Positions 16,143 to 25,227 of a DNA stretch of 64,000 nt are shown piece after piece (positions within the stretch are counted from its first letter, which is position 1; the number at the start of each line of letters is the position of its first letter). A program made the translations under genes and the position numbers. Origin of the DNA: Helcobacillus massiliensis (GTDB lineage Bacteria; Actinomycetota; Actinomycetes; Actinomycetales; Dermabacteraceae); the NCBI RefSeq assembly GCF_014191425.1, contig NZ_JACHWP010000001.1, positions 372,001 through 436,000 on the forward strand, read 5' to 3'. Under the pieces are notes generated by a model that saw nothing but the letters and a program-made list of their open reading frames with translations, was not told the origin of the DNA and ran no database searches.

Positions 16143-16511
16143 GTGGGGCGCGTGCTGATCGCCGTGGCGGGGCTGGCAGTGATCGGCATCGGCGTCTACC
16201 ACATCGTCAAGGGCGTCACCCGCAAGTTCGAGGAGGACCTGCAGGCCACCGGCGGCGGCAACGTGGGCAGGGCCGTCGTGGTCACCGGGGTGGCCGGGTA
16301 CGTGGCCAAGGGCCTGGCGCTGGTCGGCGTGGGCGTGCTGTTCGGCTGGGCCGCTATCGGCGCCGATCCGGAGAAGGCCACCGGCATGGACGGAGCCATC
16401 AAGCAGATGGCGACCCTGCCGGCCGGCACCGTGCTGCTGGTCGTGGTGGGCGTGGGCCTGATCCTGTACGGGATCTACTCGATCCTGCGCTCGCGCTACG
16501 CGTCCATGTGA
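16143..16511 (+). pseudogene. C-terminal fragment of a DUF1206 membrane protein
   Basis: 122 residues matching the end of DUF1206 proteins: VYHIVKGVTRKFEEDLQ, then VGRAVVVTGVAGYVAKGLAL, DPEKATGMDGAIKQM and the terminal YGIYSILRSRYASM. The family usually has three such repeats in about 270 residues with six helices. Here only the last repeat and half of the second remain. Upstream DNA belongs to another frame, so the 5' part was deleted. It overlaps the ROK gene's 3' end convergently by 16 nt. Confidence 0.7.
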
Positions 16512-17677
16512 GACCGGGCCGCGCGCTCGATCCAGCGCCCGGGGGCGGAGAGCACCGGCTGCAGGGCCGCGCGAGCGGCCCCGCGCAGGGCAGGGTCCTC
16601 GAGGTCGTCGGAGCGCTCGAGGGTGATCGGGCCCGCCTCGGCCGCCAGAGCATGACGATCCACGGTCTCCCGCACCACGGGCGAGATCTCCTCCGCGATG
16701 GGAGCGAGGTACCCGGACAGCACCACCGTGGACACGTCCAGCACGTTCATCGCATTGGCCACCGCGAGGCCGAGTGAGCGGCCGATGGTCCCGATGACCT
16801 CGGCCCGGTCCCCGCTGCGGGCCAGGGCGTCGATGAGATCGTCGATCAGCACGTCGTCCCCGAGGCCGGCGCGCTCGCGCAGCGAGTGGTACGAGATGTA
16901 GGCCTCCAGGCAGCCTCGGCGCCCACAGAGGCACCGGTCACCTCCCGGCTGGACCACCGTGTGGCCGAACTCGCCGGCCCAGCCGTGCACGCCGTCGAGC
17001 AGCTCCCCGTCGATCACGACGGCCCCGCCCACACCGGTGTAGCCACGGATGTAGATGAACGACTCCCCGGGGCGCTGGTCCAGCTCGGTGAGCACGGAGA
17101 GGCGGTTGTCGTTCTGCGCCCGGACGGACAGATCGGCGAGAGCCGGGTGCTCCCGCAGCAGGCTCACGAACGGCACCCGGTCCCAGCCCAGGTTGGGGGC
17201 CGACAGTACGTGATCGCCGTCCGGAGCGATGCGGCCCGGGATCGCAGCGACCACGCCCGCGATCGGCAGATGCCCCACCTCGCCGCGCGCCTGGTCCATC
17301 AGCCGCGCGCAGCAGGAGATCGCGTCCTCGGTGGTGGCGGAGGTCACGCTCACGTACTCCGTGCGGCGGGACAGAGTGCGACCGGCGAGGTCGACGGCCA
17401 GGCAGACCACGTGATCCGCCGCCACCTCGATGCCGATCGCAGCCAGGGTGTCCATGGCCGGGAGCAGCGGGACCATGGGGCGCCCGGCCCCCGATCTGAC
17501 CGGTGCGTCCTCCTGGATCAGGTGCGCGCCGATCAGCTCCTCGACGAGCTTGGAGACCGTGGGCTTGGTTAGGCGGGTCTGCTTGGCCAGTGCCGCGCGG
17601 GACAGGGGGGAGGGGGAGGAGACGACCGCTCGCAGGATCGTCGAGAGGTTGTGCTCGCGCAGGTGCGTGGACTGCAT
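16496..17677 (-). CDS. xylR: ROK-family transcriptional repressor, XylR-like
   Basis: A 393-aa ROK repressor. An N-terminal winged helix (SRAALAKQTRLTKPTVSKLVEELIG, about residues 26-50) precedes an actin-like ROK domain with sugar-site residues near HGWAGEFGH and the zinc motif CLCGRRGCLEAY. It is divergent from xylA with a 115-nt gap that contains a palindromic site, the classic xylR-xylA arrangement. It should bind xylose or a derivative and relieve repression of xylA; that effector is inferred from context. Confidence 0.88.
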   Translation of the reverse strand: MQSTHLREHNLSTILRAVVSSPSPLSRAALAKQTRLTKPTVSKLVEELIGAHLIQEDAPVRSGAGRPMVPLLPAMDTLAAIGIEVAADHVVCLAVDLAGRTLSRRTEYVSVTSATTEDAISCCARLMDQARGEVGHLPIAGVVAAIPGRIAPDGDHVLSAPNLGWDRVPFVSLLREHPALADLSVRAQNDNRLSVLTELDQRPGESFIYIRGYTGVGGAVVIDGELLDGVHGWAGEFGHTVVQPGGDRCLCGRRGCLEAYISYHSLRERAGLGDDVLIDDLIDALARSGDRAEVIGTIGRSLGLAVANAMNVLDVSTVVLSGYLAPIAEEISPVVRETVDRHALAAEAGPITLERSDDLEDPALRGAARAALQPVLSAPGRWIERAARSHMDA

Positions 17678-17792: not shown

Positions 17793-18986
17793 ATGACAGC
17801 CCCGATCCCCACCCGTGACGACAAGTTCTCCTTCGGCCTGTGGACCACGGGCTGGGAGGCGCGCGACCAGTTCGGCCTGGCGACCCGCCCGCCGCTGCAG
17901 CTGTCCGCCCACATCCGCAGGCTCGCCGAGATGGGCGCCTGGGGCTTCACCTTCCACGACAACGACGTGGTGCCCTTCGACGCCACCCCTCAGGAGCGTC
18001 AGCAGATCATCGATGAGCTCACGAAGGTCACCGAGGAGACCGGCCTGGTGATCGAGATGATCACCACCGACACCTTCGCCCACCCGGTGTTCAAGGATGG
18101 CGCCTTCACCTCCAACGACCGCTCCGTGCGCCGCTTCGGCCTGCGCAAGGTGCTGGCGAACGTCGACCTCGCCGCCGAGCTCGGCGCCACCACCTTCGTG
18201 ATGTGGGGCGGCCGCGAGGGATCGGAGTACGACGGCTCCAAGGACCTGCTCGCCGCTCACCAGCGCTACGCCGAGGGCATCGACACCGTTGCCGGGTACA
18301 TCAAGGACAAGGGCTACGACCTGCGCATCGGTCTGGAGCCCAAGCCCAACGAGCCCCGCGGCAACATCTTCCTGCCCACCGTGGGCCACGCCCTGGCCTT
18401 CATCGAGAAGCTGGAGCACGGCGAAATCGTGGGCATCAACCCCGAGACCGGCCACGAGCAGATGGCCACCCTGAACTACACCCACGGCCTCGCGCAGGCG
18501 CTGTGGGCCGACAAGCTCTTCCACATCGACCTCAACGGCCAGCACGGGCCCATGTACGACCAGGACCTCGTGTTCGGTCACGGCGATCTCATCAGTGCCT
18601 TCTTCACCGTCGACCTGCTCGAGAACGGCTTCCCGTCCAAGCCCGGCGCCTACGAAGGCGCTCGCCACTTCGACTTCAAGCCCTCCCGCACCGAGCACGA
18701 GAAGGGCCAGTACGACTCCGCGTACGCCAACATGGAGATGTACCTGATGCTCAAGGAGCGGGCCGTGGCCTTCCGCCAGGACCCCGAGGTGCAGGAGGCG
18801 CTGGCGTACTCGGGCATCGAGGAGCTGGCCCAGCCCACCCTCGGCGAGGGCGAGTCCGTGGAGGACCTGCTCGCGGACCGCTCGACCTACGAGGACTTCG
18901 ACGTGGACGCGGCCGGTGCGCGCAACTACGGCTTCGTGCGGCTCAACCAGCTGGCCATGCAGCACCTGCTCGGCTTCCGGGCCTGA
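17793..18986 (+). CDS. xylA: Xylose isomerase
   Basis: Converts D-xylose to D-xylulose. A 397-aa enzyme of the class I (actinobacterial) length. Visible signatures: [10 protein letters not shown] with the active-site His, [13 protein letters not shown], the metal-binding [16 protein letters not shown], and [22 protein letters not shown] with further metal ligands. All key residues appear intact. It is divergent from the ROK repressor. The usual partner xylB is 2.9 kb downstream, beyond two genes of different composition. Confidence 0.96.
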
Positions 18987-19074
18987 AGCATCCAAGAGAC
19001 CGAATTGCCTGTGGATTTTTTAACCGGACACTCCGCACGCGACACCAAACGAATCAATGCAAAGGCGCACCCCG

Positions 19075-20280
19075 ATGATCGAGCCGAACCTGCTCAACAG
19101 CTCTGTATGGGGCCATCTGATCCGCGAAGGCAAATACGATTACATCCCACTCAACGTTGCTGAACTTCAGTTCCCGACCGCGGCGCCAATATGCGAGGAA
19201 CTGACCCGCCTCGCACAGACCGGAGCGTACGGATACACAGAGCCCTTCGAGGATTTCCCACGCCTCGTGCACGACTGGTGTTTACGCCGTCACGGGTGGG
19301 AAGTAAATATGGATCTGGTGGTGATGGTGCCGCGCGTAGTACATCTCCTCGCTCTCATAGCCCGTGAGTACTTCCCGGCGCCGCCAATTGTCGTTACGAT
19401 GTCCCCTCAATACTCTCCCACGCTCGAAGTCCTAAAGCGCAATGGCTGCGCAATCCGTACATCTCGCCTCGTTGAAGAGGGTAACGTATGGTCCGTAGAC
19501 CTAGCAAACCTGGAATCCGTTATATTTGGTGCGGACATGCTTTTACTTTGCTCGCCGCACAATCCGACAGGAACCGTCTGGCCTCGCCATGAACTTGAGC
19601 AAATAGCAAGAATGTGCGAAGCCGCCGGGGTCATGGTCGTCTCTGACGAGGTGCATTCTGACTCCGTGCGGCATGGCACCCATACGCCCTTTGCGCTGGT
19701 CGCGGGGGAGGGGCAGGAATGGATCAGTTGCATCGCTCCAGGAAAAGCATTCAATCTCGCAGGACTCGAGACGAGCGCAATTGTCTGTTCGCGAACTGAA
19801 ACTTCACAATGGTTGCGCGGATCGCTTAGGCGGGCGGGATTCCATAATGCTAATATTTTTGGTCTACGCGCGACGCAAATAGCATGGAGTCAATGTGATG
19901 AGTGGCTGGATCGCACACAGTTAGAGCTTCAAGCATCATTTGATCTCGCGTGGAAAGTATTACGACAGGAACTGCCCGGCCTGCGACCGGTTCCGGCGGG
20001 CGGAACATTCCTATTGTGGATAGACGCGCGTAGCGTTGGCAATGAGGATACACTACGGAAATGGTTCGTTCGAGACGCCAAGGTTATTCCAGGTTTCGGT
20101 TCCGACTTTGGAGAAGAGTACTCTGGATGGTTACGTTTGAACCTCGGTATTCCCCGCGACCGACTTCAAGAGGTGCTACGCAGGCTTGTTAGTACGGCAC
20201 CTATCACAGCGCGGTCCAAGATGAATGCTCCCAGCTGCCCAGCATCTTGCGATTCGCGCGGATCAGCGCACACGGATTAA
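19075..20280 (+). CDS. MalY/PatB-type PLP-dependent aminotransferase / C-S lyase
   Basis: A 401-aa fold-type I PLP enzyme. Signatures: GAYGYTEPFEDFPRLVHDW, LCSPHNPTG, VVSDEVHSD and the PLP lysine in APGKAFNLAGL, all diagnostic of the MalY/PatB group, many of which are cystathionine beta-lyases. Start: ATG 19075 with AAAGG upstream; an ATG 6 codons earlier has no RBS. Codon use differs sharply from the neighbours (ATA, TTA, AGA, CTA codons; AT-rich stretches), marking recent transfer. Probably co-transcribed with the NhaC-type antiporter. Substrate unknown. Confidence 0.82.
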   Translation: MIEPNLLNSSVWGHLIREGKYDYIPLNVAELQFPTAAPICEELTRLAQTGAYGYTEPFEDFPRLVHDWCLRRHGWEVNMDLVVMVPRVVHLLALIAREYFPAPPIVVTMSPQYSPTLEVLKRNGCAIRTSRLVEEGNVWSVDLANLESVIFGADMLLLCSPHNPTGTVWPRHELEQIARMCEAAGVMVVSDEVHSDSVRHGTHTPFALVAGEGQEWISCIAPGKAFNLAGLETSAIVCSRTETSQWLRGSLRRAGFHNANIFGLRATQIAWSQCDEWLDRTQLELQASFDLAWKVLRQELPGLRPVPAGGTFLLWIDARSVGNEDTLRKWFVRDAKVIPGFGSDFGEEYSGWLRLNLGIPRDRLQEVLRRLVSTAPITARSKMNAPSCPASCDSRGSAHTD

Positions 20281-20322
20281 TTCAAAGCGCTCAGAGACGC
20301 GCTTCCGCGAGAGAGGAACCCA

Positions 20323-21858
20323 ATGAACAACGTCGATCAACTGGGTGAAGAGCCGGCCCCCGAGACTCAACACATCAATCCCGATGAGCATGGGCGCAGG
20401 AAGCCAACGCTGTTGGTCGCTCTCATTCCCATATTCGCAATGATGATATTCCTCGGCGTTGGCTACATTGCCTTTGGTCTCAATGCCGAGCCTATGATCA
20501 TCCTTTCAGCGGCTGTTGCAGCGGTGGTCGCCAAGTTCCTCGGCTGGACCTGGAACGATATGGTTGAATCGATCGCGGTTAAAATGAAAAAGACGTGGCC
20601 TGCGATCCTCATTCTGATCTGCGTAGGCCTTCTAATTGGTGCCTGGATGGCTGGCGGCACAATCCCAATGATGATCTACTGGGGATTGAGGATCATTAGC
20701 CCCCAATTTATCGGTCTGACAGCTCTTTTGGTGACATCAATAGTCGCATTGGCGACCGGAACGTCCTGGGGGGCTGCCGGGACGGTAGGAGTCGCTTTCA
20801 TGGGCGTTGCGATCGGCATGGATGCGAATCTTGCCTCAGTTGCAGGTGCTGTTGTGGCCGGTGCGTATTTCGGAGATAAGATGTCGCCGCTTTCGGACAC
20901 TACGAACCTGGCGTCGATGATTACGCGTGTCAACCTCTATGAGCACATTGCTAACCTGCTATGGACGACACTTCCAGCATATATTATCTCCGCCCTGGCG
21001 TTTCTCTTTGTGGGGCTGAACAATGAAGGGAGTGGCGAAATTTCATCGGAGAGCATAGACGGCATGCTCACCTCCCTCTCCTCAGGGTTTGATTTCAATC
21101 TACTGGTCGTTTTGCCGGTGATAGTTGTCTTTGCGGGTTCACTTCTCCGCATGCCGACTATTCCTGTTATGTTGTCCGCCGCCGCTCTCGCGATGATCAA
21201 CGCGGTGGTGTTTCAGGGAATCTCATTGCAGAACACCGTGGGTGCGATCGTCAACGGCTTCAACCTAGAGATGATTGAACGGGCGGGGTTTGATGCTGTG
21301 TCGGGCGGGGAGGATCTCGCGACGCTTCTGAATCGTGGAGGGATGAATTCCATGATGGGCACGCTGCTCATTGCGTTTTGTGCTATCGCCTTCGCGGGTA
21401 TCATCGATCTGACCGGTTCGCTGCAGGTGATGGTCGAGAAGCTGTTGGCAGGCGTCAAGAATATTTTCGGACTGGCAGGAGCGACGATCGTCACTTGCTT
21501 GACGACAATCGGGGTGACTTGCAACGGGCAGATTTCAATTATTCTGCCCGGTGAGATTTTCCGTCCCGAATACATCAAGCGAGGAGTTCACCCGAAGGTG
21601 CTGGGGAGAACGATTGAGGACGCCGCAAGCGTGATCGAACCTATCCTCCCCTGGACTGCGGCGGGGGCTTACATGGCGGGCACCTTAGGCGTCGCAACCC
21701 TCGATTATCTGCCGTGGGCGGTTCAGAACTGGGCGGGGGTCCTAGTTGCAATTGTTCTGGCTGCGACGGGAATGGGTATCACGAGGCTAACTGCAGAGAC
21801 GAGCGCTGAGGAGGGTGGCGTCGAGAATGCGGGCGGTCCCTCTGCCACTATGGCATGA
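20323..21858 (+). CDS. NhaC-family Na+/H+ antiporter
   Basis: A 511-aa polytopic protein with about eleven to thirteen hydrophobic segments. NhaC signatures: ATGTSWGAAGTVGVAFMG, VAGAYFGDKMSPLSDTTNLAS and the late LTTIGVTCNGQISIILPGE. NhaC relatives exchange Na+ for H+, some coupled to organic acids (MleN: malate/lactate). A hydrophilic 26-residue N-tail precedes the first helix. RBS GAGAGGAA. Composition matches the upstream aminotransferase and not xylA/xylB, so the pair entered together. The transported organic substrate, if any, cannot be told from sequence. Confidence 0.86.
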   Translation: MNNVDQLGEEPAPETQHINPDEHGRRKPTLLVALIPIFAMMIFLGVGYIAFGLNAEPMIILSAAVAAVVAKFLGWTWNDMVESIAVKMKKTWPAILILICVGLLIGAWMAGGTIPMMIYWGLRIISPQFIGLTALLVTSIVALATGTSWGAAGTVGVAFMGVAIGMDANLASVAGAVVAGAYFGDKMSPLSDTTNLASMITRVNLYEHIANLLWTTLPAYIISALAFLFVGLNNEGSGEISSESIDGMLTSLSSGFDFNLLVVLPVIVVFAGSLLRMPTIPVMLSAAALAMINAVVFQGISLQNTVGAIVNGFNLEMIERAGFDAVSGGEDLATLLNRGGMNSMMGTLLIAFCAIAFAGIIDLTGSLQVMVEKLLAGVKNIFGLAGATIVTCLTTIGVTCNGQISIILPGEIFRPEYIKRGVHPKVLGRTIEDAASVIEPILPWTAAGAYMAGTLGVATLDYLPWAVQNWAGVLVAIVLAATGMGITRLTAETSAEEGGVENAGGPSATMA

Positions 21859-21875
21859 AACACAAGATTGAAGCG

Positions 21876-21893
21876 CCAGCTCAGCGGAGCTGG
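21876..21893 (+). terminator. Small hairpin after the NhaC gene
   Basis: CCAGCTC-AGCG-GAGCTGG, a 7-bp stem without a T-tract, 17 nt after the stop and 24 nt before xylB. It could be a weak terminator or a junction relic. Confidence 0.35.
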
Positions 21894-21916
21894 GGAATGT
21901 AGGGAAGGAAAGTACT

Positions 21917-23299
21917 ATGCCCTTCGTGTTAGGCATCGACTCCTCCACCCAGTCCACCAAGGCCCTGCTGGTCGACGCCGAGACGGGCGAGGTGCAGGAC
22001 GAGCGCCGCGCCGCCCACCCCGAGGGCACCGAGGTCGATCCCCGTGCCTGGCTGGACGCGGTGGACGAGGCGGCCGGTCCCCTCCTGGAGCGGGCCGAGG
22101 CCCTCGCCGTGGGCGGCCAGCAGCACGGCATGGTGCTGCTGGACGAGCACGGCGGCGTGGTGCGCGACGCCCTGCTGTGGAACGACACCCGCTCCGCACC
22201 GCAGGCGCAGGCACTGATCGAGGAGATGGGCGGGCCCGAGCAGTGCGTCGGTGAGATCGGCAGCCTGATGGTGGCCTCCTTCACCGCCTCCAAGCTGCGG
22301 TGGGTGCGGGACAACGAGCCCGACAGCGCAGCGCGCGCCCGCTCCGTGATGCTCCCGCACGACTACGTCTCCCGTCACCTGGCCGGGGGAGGGGACGCCT
22401 TCACCGACCGCGGCGATGCCTCCGGCACCGGCTACTACTCCACACGCGCCGAGGCCTGGGTGCCTGAGCTGGCCGAGCGCGCCCTGGGCCACGCCCTGGA
22501 GCTGCCCCGCCTCCCGTCGACGCCGCAGGAGGTCATGGCGCGCACCCCGGGAGGCGCCGCGATCGCGGCCGGCACCGGCGACAACATGGGCGCGGCCCTC
22601 GGGCTGTCGCTCGGCCCGGGGGACGTCTCCGTCTCAATCGGCACCTCCGGTGTGTGCGCCATGGTCACGGACGTCCGGCCCGACGACGCCTCAGGCACCG
22701 TCACCGGCTTCGCCGACGCCACCGGGCGCTTCCTGCCGATGACCACCACCATCAACGCCTCCCGGATCCTCGAGGCCGGCCGTGCCCTGCTGGGCGTGGA
22801 CCACGAGGAGCTCTCCCGGCTCGCGCTCGCCTCAGAGCCCGGGGCGGGCGGGGTGACCCTGCTGCCCTACTTCGACGGGGAGCGCACCCCCAACCGCCCC
22901 ACCGCGCGGGCCACCCTCACGGGAATGAGCGCCTCCACCACCCGTGAGGACGTGGCGCGCGCCTACGTGGAAGGCCTGCTGTGCTCCCTGGCCGACGGCA
23001 TCGCGGCCCTGGAGGACGTCACCGGCACCGCTGCGGCCCGGATCGTGCTGATCGGCGGCGGGGCCCGCAGCCGCGCCGTGCAGGAACTGGCCCCGGCCGT
23101 GTTCGGCCGCGAGGTCGAGATCGCCCCGAGCGGCGAGTACGTCGCACTCGGAGCAGCCCGCCAGGCCGCCTGGGCGCTCGCCAGCACCGACGAGCCGCCG
23201 CACTGGGAGATCACCGGCAGCCGCACCGTCGGCGCGGAGGCGACACCGCAGGTGCTGGCGGCCTACCGTGAGCTCAAAGAGCGCACCGAGGGCTGGTGA
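21917..23299 (+). CDS. xylB: Xylulokinase
   Basis: Phosphorylates D-xylulose for the pentose phosphate pathway. A 460-aa FGGY-family kinase: N-terminal GIDSSTQSTKALLVD phosphate-binding loop, GGQQHGMVLLD, WNDTRS, substrate-side DRGDASGTGYYS, the second phosphate motif SIGTSGVCAMV and the adenosine motif LIGGGARSRAVQ. High GC like xylA. It completes the catabolic pair with xylA but is separated by the foreign two-gene segment. RBS GGGAAGGAAAG. An RBS-like GAAGGAG at about 23383, just before the IS, hints that a further xyl gene once followed. Confidence 0.94.
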   Translation: MPFVLGIDSSTQSTKALLVDAETGEVQDERRAAHPEGTEVDPRAWLDAVDEAAGPLLERAEALAVGGQQHGMVLLDEHGGVVRDALLWNDTRSAPQAQALIEEMGGPEQCVGEIGSLMVASFTASKLRWVRDNEPDSAARARSVMLPHDYVSRHLAGGGDAFTDRGDASGTGYYSTRAEAWVPELAERALGHALELPRLPSTPQEVMARTPGGAAIAAGTGDNMGAALGLSLGPGDVSVSIGTSGVCAMVTDVRPDDASGTVTGFADATGRFLPMTTTINASRILEAGRALLGVDHEELSRLALASEPGAGGVTLLPYFDGERTPNRPTARATLTGMSASTTREDVARAYVEGLLCSLADGIAALEDVTGTAAARIVLIGGGARSRAVQELAPAVFGREVEIAPSGEYVALGAARQAAWALASTDEPPHWEITGSRTVGAEATPQVLAAYRELKERTEGW

Positions 23300-23412
23300 G
23301 CCCGGGAGTGCCCGGACCTGTTCGCGGACGCACCACCGGCGCGTCGCACCGGCCGGCCACCCCTGACCCCGCACGCCTGACCGAAGGAGCATCCGACCTG
23401 ACTTGGACCTCT

Positions 23413-24949
23413 TTAGTGTGTCACTCGCTGAAGGACGTGTCGGGCGTCGTCGGTGAGTTCGGGCTTGGCTGTGATCTGCTGTCCGGCGAGGCTGATGGTG
23501 ACGTCTTGGAGTGGGCGTAGTGTGCGGATGATCTTGCGGATGCTGAACCCGGTCTTGTGCTGCAGGTAGCGGGCGATCGCCAGGGCAGTGAACACGATGG
23601 TGAGGTGGGCTTCGATCGCGTCGCGTTGCCGGTGAAATATGGGCCTGGCCTGCAGGTCTGTCTTACTCATCCGGAAGGACTGCTCGACGTGCCAGAGGTC
23701 GTGATAGCTCGAGAGCACCTCTGCCGGCGGCATGACCTGGGCGGGGATGTTGGTGACGTAGCCCTTCAATCCGACCAGGCGCCGAGCTCGCTCGAGAGAG
23801 GCTTCGTCGAGGGTGCGACCGGCCGCAGTGGTCTTCACGAACCGGGTCGACTTCACCGCCGCGTCCCCGTCGATCACGGCCCGGGCCCGGTTCTCCTGCG
23901 CAGTGAGTGTGTGTCCGTCCCGGACTGCGCGTTTGCGGGAGTAAGCCCAGACGGCCCGCCAGTGCCCGGGATGCTGCTCGGGGTCCCAGACCGGCTCCCG
24001 CCGGTTCTTCTTCCGCTCGGTCCTGGTGTTGCCGTGGCGCGGGGTGATCGTGTCGATCAACTGCCCATCGGTGAACGCAATGCCCATTCCAGTGGAAGTG
24101 ATTGGCCAGGTCACCCGGCGCTTTCACCTGTCTTGAGCTGACGATGAACTTCAGCTCCGCCTCGTCCAGCGCCGTCAGATTGGCGGTGGAGAGCATCCCG
24201 GCATCAGCGACCCCAACCATGTCGGCAAGGTTGTGGCGGGTCTGGAACTGCTTGATGATCGGCACGATCGTGCGGGTCTCGGCATGGTTCCCCTCGAAGC
24301 AGCCGATCTCCAGCGGGAACCCGCCCCGGTCCACGAGCAGGCCGACCACGATCTGCGGATCGACGCGGCGTTCCTTGGAGTAGCCGACCTTCCGCAGCTC
24401 GTCCTCGTGCTCCGCCTCAAAGTAGAGCGTGGTGACGTCGTAGAGGACCAGCGAGATGTCACCGCTGGTGGCAGCGTGTTCGAAGCACTTCGTGGCAATG
24501 TGGTCGCGGTACTCGCGCTCGGCGACGCGTGCCAGGCAGCGCTTCATCGTCGAGCGGTGCACCGGGTCCATCCCAACCTCGGTCAGCACGCGAGCGGAGT
24601 CGCTCATCGAGGTCGGCTCGGTCAGTCTCGCGGCGACGAGCTGGAAGAACGCCTCGTTCTTGATGACGTCGAACCCCAGCGCCGTCCATGCCACCTGGAG
24701 CGTCTCCACCAGCTGGCGGGAGCGTTTCGAGTAGACCACCGCTGACTGCGGATCCCGCGGAAGACCCAGGTCAAGGGCCTCCTGGGCCGCGTTGATCTTG
24801 TCCCGGCCCGCACTCATCAGCGCGGCAAGCTCGGGCTCGGTATGGGCGGAGCCGAGGTGCTCGAGCACTACATCCCGGCGGTTCTTCCGCTCGGCGATCT
24901 GCACCGCAGTCGCACCCGACGCCGTCTTCGTCTTCCGCAGAAACACCAT
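23413..24949 (-). pseudogene. IS1634-family (IS4-like) transposase, frameshifted
   Basis: The N-terminal 290 residues (MVFLRKTKTASGATAVQ..., DVTTLYFEAEHEDELRKVGYSK, GVADAGMLSTANL) and the C-terminal 220 (SYHDLWHVEQSFRMSKTDLQARPIFHR, TIVFTALAIARYLQ) are collinear with one DDE transposase but lie in different frames. They meet near 24084: HFHWNG in one frame, IAFTDGQLIDT in the other. Removing one G from the GGG there restores a continuous chain of about 510 aa. DDE residues lie in both parts. It could be a real mutation, a sequencing error or, less likely, programmed frameshifting. Confidence 0.8.
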
Positions 24950-24965
24950 GCCGTTAGTGTGTCAC
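23413..24965 (-). mobile_element. IS1634-type insertion sequence
   Basis: Holds only the transposase. TTAGTGTGTCAC occurs as a direct repeat at both edges (23413-23424 and 24954-24965); on the left it includes the transposase stop codon. I could not identify matched terminal inverted repeats, so the exact ends are uncertain. It lies just downstream of xylB and may have cut off a following gene. Confidence 0.6.
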
Positions 24966-25017
24966 CCACGACCTCCGGCACGGCCCTGACCAGGAGGAAC
25001 ATCGACAGAATCAGCGT

Positions 25018-25227
25018 TCATCTCCCAGAGAGGTCCAACTCGGGTGACCGGCGCGAGTGAACCTTCGTCGCGAGCACCCCGCAGACCGGACAGCCCGGCG
25101 TGACGGTCGAGGTGATCACCACCCGCCGGTCCCCGTCGGGCAGGTCGGTGGCGTCGATGACGCGGTAGTTGGGCAGGTTGAAGATCGTGCTCGCAGCATC
25201 GCGCTGCGAACCAGTATTCTCGTGCAC
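25018..25227 (-). pseudogene. N-terminal fragment of an ISL3-family transposase
   Basis: About 55 residues match the start of ISL3 transposases: TIFNLPNYRVIDATDLPDG, VVITSTVTPGC, then the zinc-ribbon CPVCGVLATKVHSRR. After HSRR the match ends and a stop follows within 10 codons, so more than 80% of the gene is missing. A 9-bp inverted repeat GGCTCGTGG/CCACGAGCC lies upstream (25229-25290). A relic within the island. Confidence 0.7.

Follow-up and report, generated by a model that had tools for sequence, protein, structure and literature searches.

A MalY/PatB-family lyase and NhaC-family transporter gene pair of foreign composition between xylA and xylB of Helcobacillus massiliensis

Gene content of the xylose locus

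The DNA analysed here, a 64-kb stretch of the Helcobacillus massiliensis genome referred to as the window, contains a xylose locus in which two genes lie between those encoding xylose isomerase and xylulokinase. The following features were assigned, with alignments referring to G014, the genome of the nearest relative at this locus:

16496..17677, minus strand: xylR, ROK-family repressor, divergent from xylA (Pfam ROK, 143 bits)
17793..18986, plus strand: xylA, xylose isomerase (TIGR02631, 614 bits)
18987..19074, plus strand: left junction of the foreign tract, with its leader (G014 alignment)
19075..20280, plus strand (alternative start 19057): MalY/PatB-family PLP lyase, GC 55%
20323..21858, plus strand: nhaC, NhaC-family secondary transporter of 511 amino acids (TIGR00931, 527 bits), GC 55%
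21859..21916, plus strand: spacer between nhaC and xylB, containing a 7-bp hairpin and the ribosome-binding region of xylB
21917..21934, plus strand: xylB codons 1-6, apparently within the imported tract (G014 alignment and a TTA codon)
21917..23299, plus strand: xylB, xylulokinase (TIGR01312, 414 bits)

The gene identities and coordinates given in an earlier note on this DNA are borne out, with one refinement: the lyase more likely starts at 19075 (401 amino acids) than at 19057, because its homologue in another relative, G027, begins at the matching place. The position and orientation of xylR are the same in approximately 20 relatives of which the xyl loci were read, and a T-run terminator was looked for in the nhaC-xylB spacer (21859..21916) and not found. 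Directly 3' of xylB lies an insertion sequence (IS) element (23396-25045) with imperfect inverted ends of approximately 17 nt, the DDE_Tnp_1 transposase of which is split by a frameshift into two minus-strand open reading frames (23663-24949 and 23413-24114).

Composition and codon use

Along the window the GC content drops from approximately 67-74% to 54% across the lyase gene and nhaC, and the low-GC tract spans from about 18987, just past the xylA stop codon, to about 21933, slightly inside xylB. The GC3 values of xylA, lyase, nhaC, and xylB are 0.955, 0.559, 0.635, and 0.933, respectively. Relative to the native genes of the window, the codon adaptation index (CAI) is 0.227 and 0.270 for the two intervening genes, versus a native median of 0.72 and a value of 0.465 for the next-lowest gene, and both genes therefore look as foreign as the earlier note had proposed. 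The same note had named ATA, TTA, CTA, and AGA as characteristic codons, which holds for the first three, present 11, 6, and 12 times in the 910 codons of the pair and only 2, 3, and 8 times among 14,563 codons from the window's native genes, but not for AGA, of which the pair contains 2 copies without clear enrichment.

The xylA-xylB slot among relatives

The family sample, presumably of Dermabacteraceae (Brachybacterium-like), comprised 47 genomes, including the source genome (G000), and yielded 27 loci with both xylA and xylB. In 24 of these the slot between the two genes is empty, with spacers ranging from a few bases to approximately 650 bp, which agrees with the claim that these high-GC genes are normally adjacent; one locus (G014) contains a dehydrogenase gene in the slot, and two, the window and G027, contain the lyase-nhaC pair. 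Atypical codon use is thus combined with a pair-free site in close relatives, by which vertical inheritance in this lineage is rejected. The arrival of two foreign genes in a native operon of xylA and xylB with divergent xylR, as put forward before, is sustained by the foreign codon use, the lack of the pair in nearly all relatives, and the different gene in the slot of G014.

The insertion in G027 is the same, and its lyase and nhaC genes have GC3 values of 0.85 and 0.88, which are close to native. The pairs of the window and G027 are sisters in both the NhaC and the lyase tree (support 99/99 and 100/100). The four-gene order in near-uniform composition, which in the earlier note counted against an insertion, therefore does exist in one relative, but it is not widespread. 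The G027 lineage is rejected as a source of the entire operon, as the nucleotide sequence of the window's xylB is 97.6% identical to that of G014 versus 83.5% to that of G027.

In G014, the 3' fragment of xylA is 97.7% identical at the nucleotide level to that of the window, and the slot holds a zinc dehydrogenase gene, perhaps of the sorbitol/xylitol type judging from its sequence, in place of lyase-nhaC. The G014 operon is decaying (L101:4380-5916), in that it lacks xylR and the 5' portion of xylA, while xylB is intact and the dehydrogenase gene lies between the xylA remnant and xylB; this arrangement suggests that a polyol, e.g., xylitol, has taken the place of xylose. With the slot being empty, pair-filled, or dehydrogenase-filled across relatives, this locus offers a clear case of operon remodelling, probably via spacer exchange.

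Most relatives have a near-perfect hairpin of approximately 19-28 pairs between xylA and xylB (L073-L089; e.g., L087:6242-6303, L081:6253-6318, and L074:6671-6736). These hairpins share their position and differ in sequence, are well above shuffled spacers, and are rare elsewhere in these loci. Long hairpins of this type are absent from the spacers of G000 and G027, and none of that length was found in the 64-kb window.

Junctions and route of arrival

Homology to G014 stops at the xylA stop codon and restarts at codon 7 of xylB, codons 1-6 being different. The only TTA codon of xylB is codon 5, and the chance of encountering TTA within six native codons is approximately 0.001. The right junction thus seems to lie inside xylB, within codons 1-6, a placement that rests on approximately 18 bases. 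A junction at this position implies that the donor probably already carried nhaC next to xylB, so that the imported tract would have brought its own xylB start from a donor with nhaC upstream of xylB.

Recombinase, integrase, and transposase genes and repeats were searched for at 18987 and 21916 and none were found, the nearest IS element being the one 3' of xylB. A transposon, phage, or integron cassette was rejected on the basis of these junctions, which are without recombinase, terminal repeats, or target duplication. Moreover, phage records gave distant NhaC matches only (at most 33% among the matches listed), and the spacers of relatives contained no cassette remnants, with matches confined to xylA and xylB ends and the xylB leader. 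Approximately 400 genomes of the order and a phylum sample were searched for a close donor and none was found, the best lyase being that of G027 (64%), and a collection of genome contigs gave only lyases of 29-33% identity. The codon use of the window's pair is closest to that of the pair in G573 (GC 53%), a genome of the second family described below, as a suggestive hint of origin only.

The route that fits these junctions best would be horizontal acquisition of a pre-existing lyase-NhaC module from a donor of approximately 55% GC, probably from a xyl operon with nhaC upstream of xylB, whereby recombination with this other xylose operon would have swapped the xylA-xylB spacer. Being flanked by xylA and xylB and having the orientation of xylA, the pair is expected to be co-transcribed with these genes under control of XylR.

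The lyase-nhaC pair in other genomes

The earlier note had proposed a search for the pair in other genomes, and it is indeed encountered repeatedly. In a second family of 213 genomes (f3, presumably the Actinomycetaceae), 30 genomes have a related NhaC, and approximately 26 of these have a lyase gene adjoining or near it, usually just upstream of nhaC. Eight of these 26 loci lie in or beside xylAB (G369, G537, G542, G549, G481, G482, G520, and G573), in genomes belonging to the genera g74, g116, g123, and g8. Gene order in this family differs from that in the window, being xylA-xylB-lyase-nhaC, with an overlap of 8 bp between xylB and lyase in G369 and with three ABC-transporter-like genes (judged by eye from sequence) between xylB and lyase in G573, while in G481 nhaC alone is in the xyl operon and a divergent lyase gene is on the opposite strand. 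Other f3 pairs are located downstream of a YheO-type PAS regulator, and the G466 pair has an M20 peptidase-family hydrolase upstream.

Annotated MalY/PatB-NhaC pairs are likewise adjacent on plasmids of E. coli, Citrobacter, Klebsiella, Serratia, Vibrio, and Paenibacillus, with 45-56% (NhaC) and 31-33% (lyase) identity to those of the window. These pairs differ from the window's in lying outside xyl operons: the Paenibacillus plasmid has the order PAS regulator-MalY-NhaC-RidA, the E. coli pair is flanked by IS elements, the Citrobacter pair adjoins malEFG, and the Klebsiella, Vibrio, and Serratia plasmids have the order LacI regulator-nhaC-malY. Judged from these sequences, lyase-nhaC is a standing two-gene unit and not an ad hoc cassette. 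The notion of an unrelated cassette that landed in a xyl operon by chance is not supported, given the same order in G027 and the presence of the pair within xylAB operons of several genera of the second family.

Several of the loci have features of their own. A second mosaic is seen in G520 (L191:5269-9444), where lyase and nhaC with GC3 values of 0.31-0.34 lie behind xylAB with 0.57-0.60. In genus g116 (L187:6178-7386 and L186:3773-5014), a divergent MalY/PatB-like gene adjoins nhaC, the two copies forming their own clade. In G553 (L182:7089-8383) the lyase gene is split in two frames next to an intact nhaC, whereas the copy in its near relative G528 is unbroken.

Predicted function of the pair

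The catalytic set of the lyase is intact, comprising K224 (PLP-binding), N163 (NPTG), D191 (SDE), R354 (C-terminal carboxylate-binding), Y54, and Y113, and profile matches were obtained with B. subtilis PatB (6qp3, E 1.5e-101) and MalY (1d2f, E 9e-74). TIGR04350 (C_S_lyase_PatB) is by far the best of all models, but its score of 275 bits is below the cutoff of 340; a substrate other than a sulfur compound is therefore possible, and the protein is filed here as a putative lyase of the MalY/PatB family rather than a proven PatB C-S lyase. PatB/MalY cysteine-S-conjugate beta-lyases, such as those of B. subtilis and S. hominis (PatB) and E. coli (MalY), share with it the PLP fold family and the catalytic Lys, Asp, Asn, Tyr, and Arg (PMC7385124); besides the TIGR04350 score, the window's lyase differs in its divergent N-terminus (VAELQF, not WVADMDF) and its transporter partner.

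The transporter scores 527 bits with TIGR00931, above the cutoff of 370, and 301 bits with the ArcD-type antiporter model NF052307, below the cutoff of 650; a sequence search for a related solved structure found none. MetT and ArcD belong to the NhaC superfamily as well and have predicted or curated roles in amino-acid transport, MetT being a predicted methionine transporter (PMC2940859, PMC3228920), although the window's transporter has its best score with NhaC. The y3555-y3550 island of Y. pestis resembles the pair in being an acquired low-GC operon that encodes a PLP enzyme and NhaC, and in addition RidA, and differs in that its PLP enzyme is aromatic-aminotransferase-like by description and xylose genes are lacking (PMC7221256). 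According to that study, RidA removes 2-aminoacrylate that such PLP enzymes can release (PMC7221256).

On the indirect support of the intact PatB catalytic set and the RidA or M20-peptidase neighbours elsewhere, the best functional reading is import and beta-elimination of a beta-substituted alanine, predicted to be co-expressed with the xylose genes. The compound imported by NhaC would be an alanine that bears a leaving group at its beta-carbon, examples being cysteine S-conjugates and cystathionine-like amino acids. Beta-elimination by the PLP lyase would then yield 2-aminoacrylate, and from it pyruvate and ammonia, and would set free the leaving group, a thiol if the enzyme is a true C-S lyase. 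The uptake-and-cleavage module of the earlier note remains plausible in this form. Taken as a whole, i.e., transfer of the module into the xyl operon by a spacer swap, co-transcription, and import followed by beta-elimination of a beta-substituted alanine, this is the account that we favor, with moderate confidence.

Linkage with xylose genes

The xyl-linked state requires 6 changes on both the NhaC and the lyase tree, with at least 4 (NhaC) and at least 3 (lyase) of these changes forced by well-supported branches, which implies either several origins of the link or its repeated retention and loss. Actinobacteria of several genera thus have a transporter-lyase pair recurrently wired into their xylose operons, with two different gene orders, and the link is probably meaningful. 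A literature search for a PatB-NhaC-xylose link found no paper. Six of the 26 pair-bearing f3 genomes are without detected xylA, and the identity between xyl-linked and YheO-linked transporters reaches 86%, so that the substrate does not have to contain xylose. The link may reflect either a permissive site or shared food sources on which both sets of genes are expressed together. The identity of the substrate would tell what these bacteria scavenge during growth on xylose.

The permissive site taken by itself constitutes the main competing explanation, according to which xyl operons, without any functional tie to xylose, are only well-expressed landing sites for a catabolic module that is mobile or readily recruited. 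This possibility, which we consider rather unlikely, is in line with the majority of pair loci being not xyl-linked (those with a YheO-type or no regulator, those of the LacI type, and the IS-flanked pair of the E. coli plasmid), with the close likeness of the pair proteins between linked and unlinked loci, and with the unrelated dehydrogenase in the G014 slot. It is at odds with the frequency of linkage: the pair and xylA lie within approximately 10 kb of each other in 8 of the 20 f3 genomes that have both, for which the naive chance is approximately 3e-12 with kinship ignored, or approximately 1e-6 when counted as four of ten lineages, ten being an assumed number and kinship again ignored. 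Moreover, xylA is found in 20/26 f3 genomes with the pair versus 65/187 without it (Fisher 5e-5, kinship ignored).

Alternative functional readings

A role in Na+ or pH homeostasis, in which NhaC would be a genuine Na+/H+ antiporter that aids xylose uptake or osmotolerance and the lyase would be incidental, appears improbable. NhaC is the best curated model and scores above its cutoff, and the Y. pestis island of PLP enzyme, NhaC, and RidA is salt-induced (PMC7221256), but the pairing with a PLP lyase extends across phyla, the model for arginine/ornithine antiporters likewise gives 301 bits, and relatives of NhaC are predicted to carry amino acids.

Import of a xylose-amino-acid conjugate (e.g., of the O-xylosyl-serine type) by NhaC, from which the lyase would free xylose for XylA and XylB together with pyruvate and ammonia, would represent a new glycosyl-amino-acid lyase pathway. 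The recurrent embedding of the pair in xylAB operons and the sugar-type (LacI) regulators that adjoin it in enterobacteria and Vibrio would suit such a substrate. We nevertheless regard it as very improbable, considering the pair-bearing genomes without detected xylA, the similarity of the transporters to those of YheO-linked loci (up to 86% identity), and a literature search in which a xylosyl-serine lyase was not found.

MalY represses MalT. A comparable moonlighting role of the lyase on the xylose regulator, with the transporter being incidental, is the least probable reading, since membership of the MalY family and the Citrobacter pair next to malEFG are outweighed by the conserved catalytic set, the transporter as the conserved partner, and the many pairs that occur without a sugar regulator.
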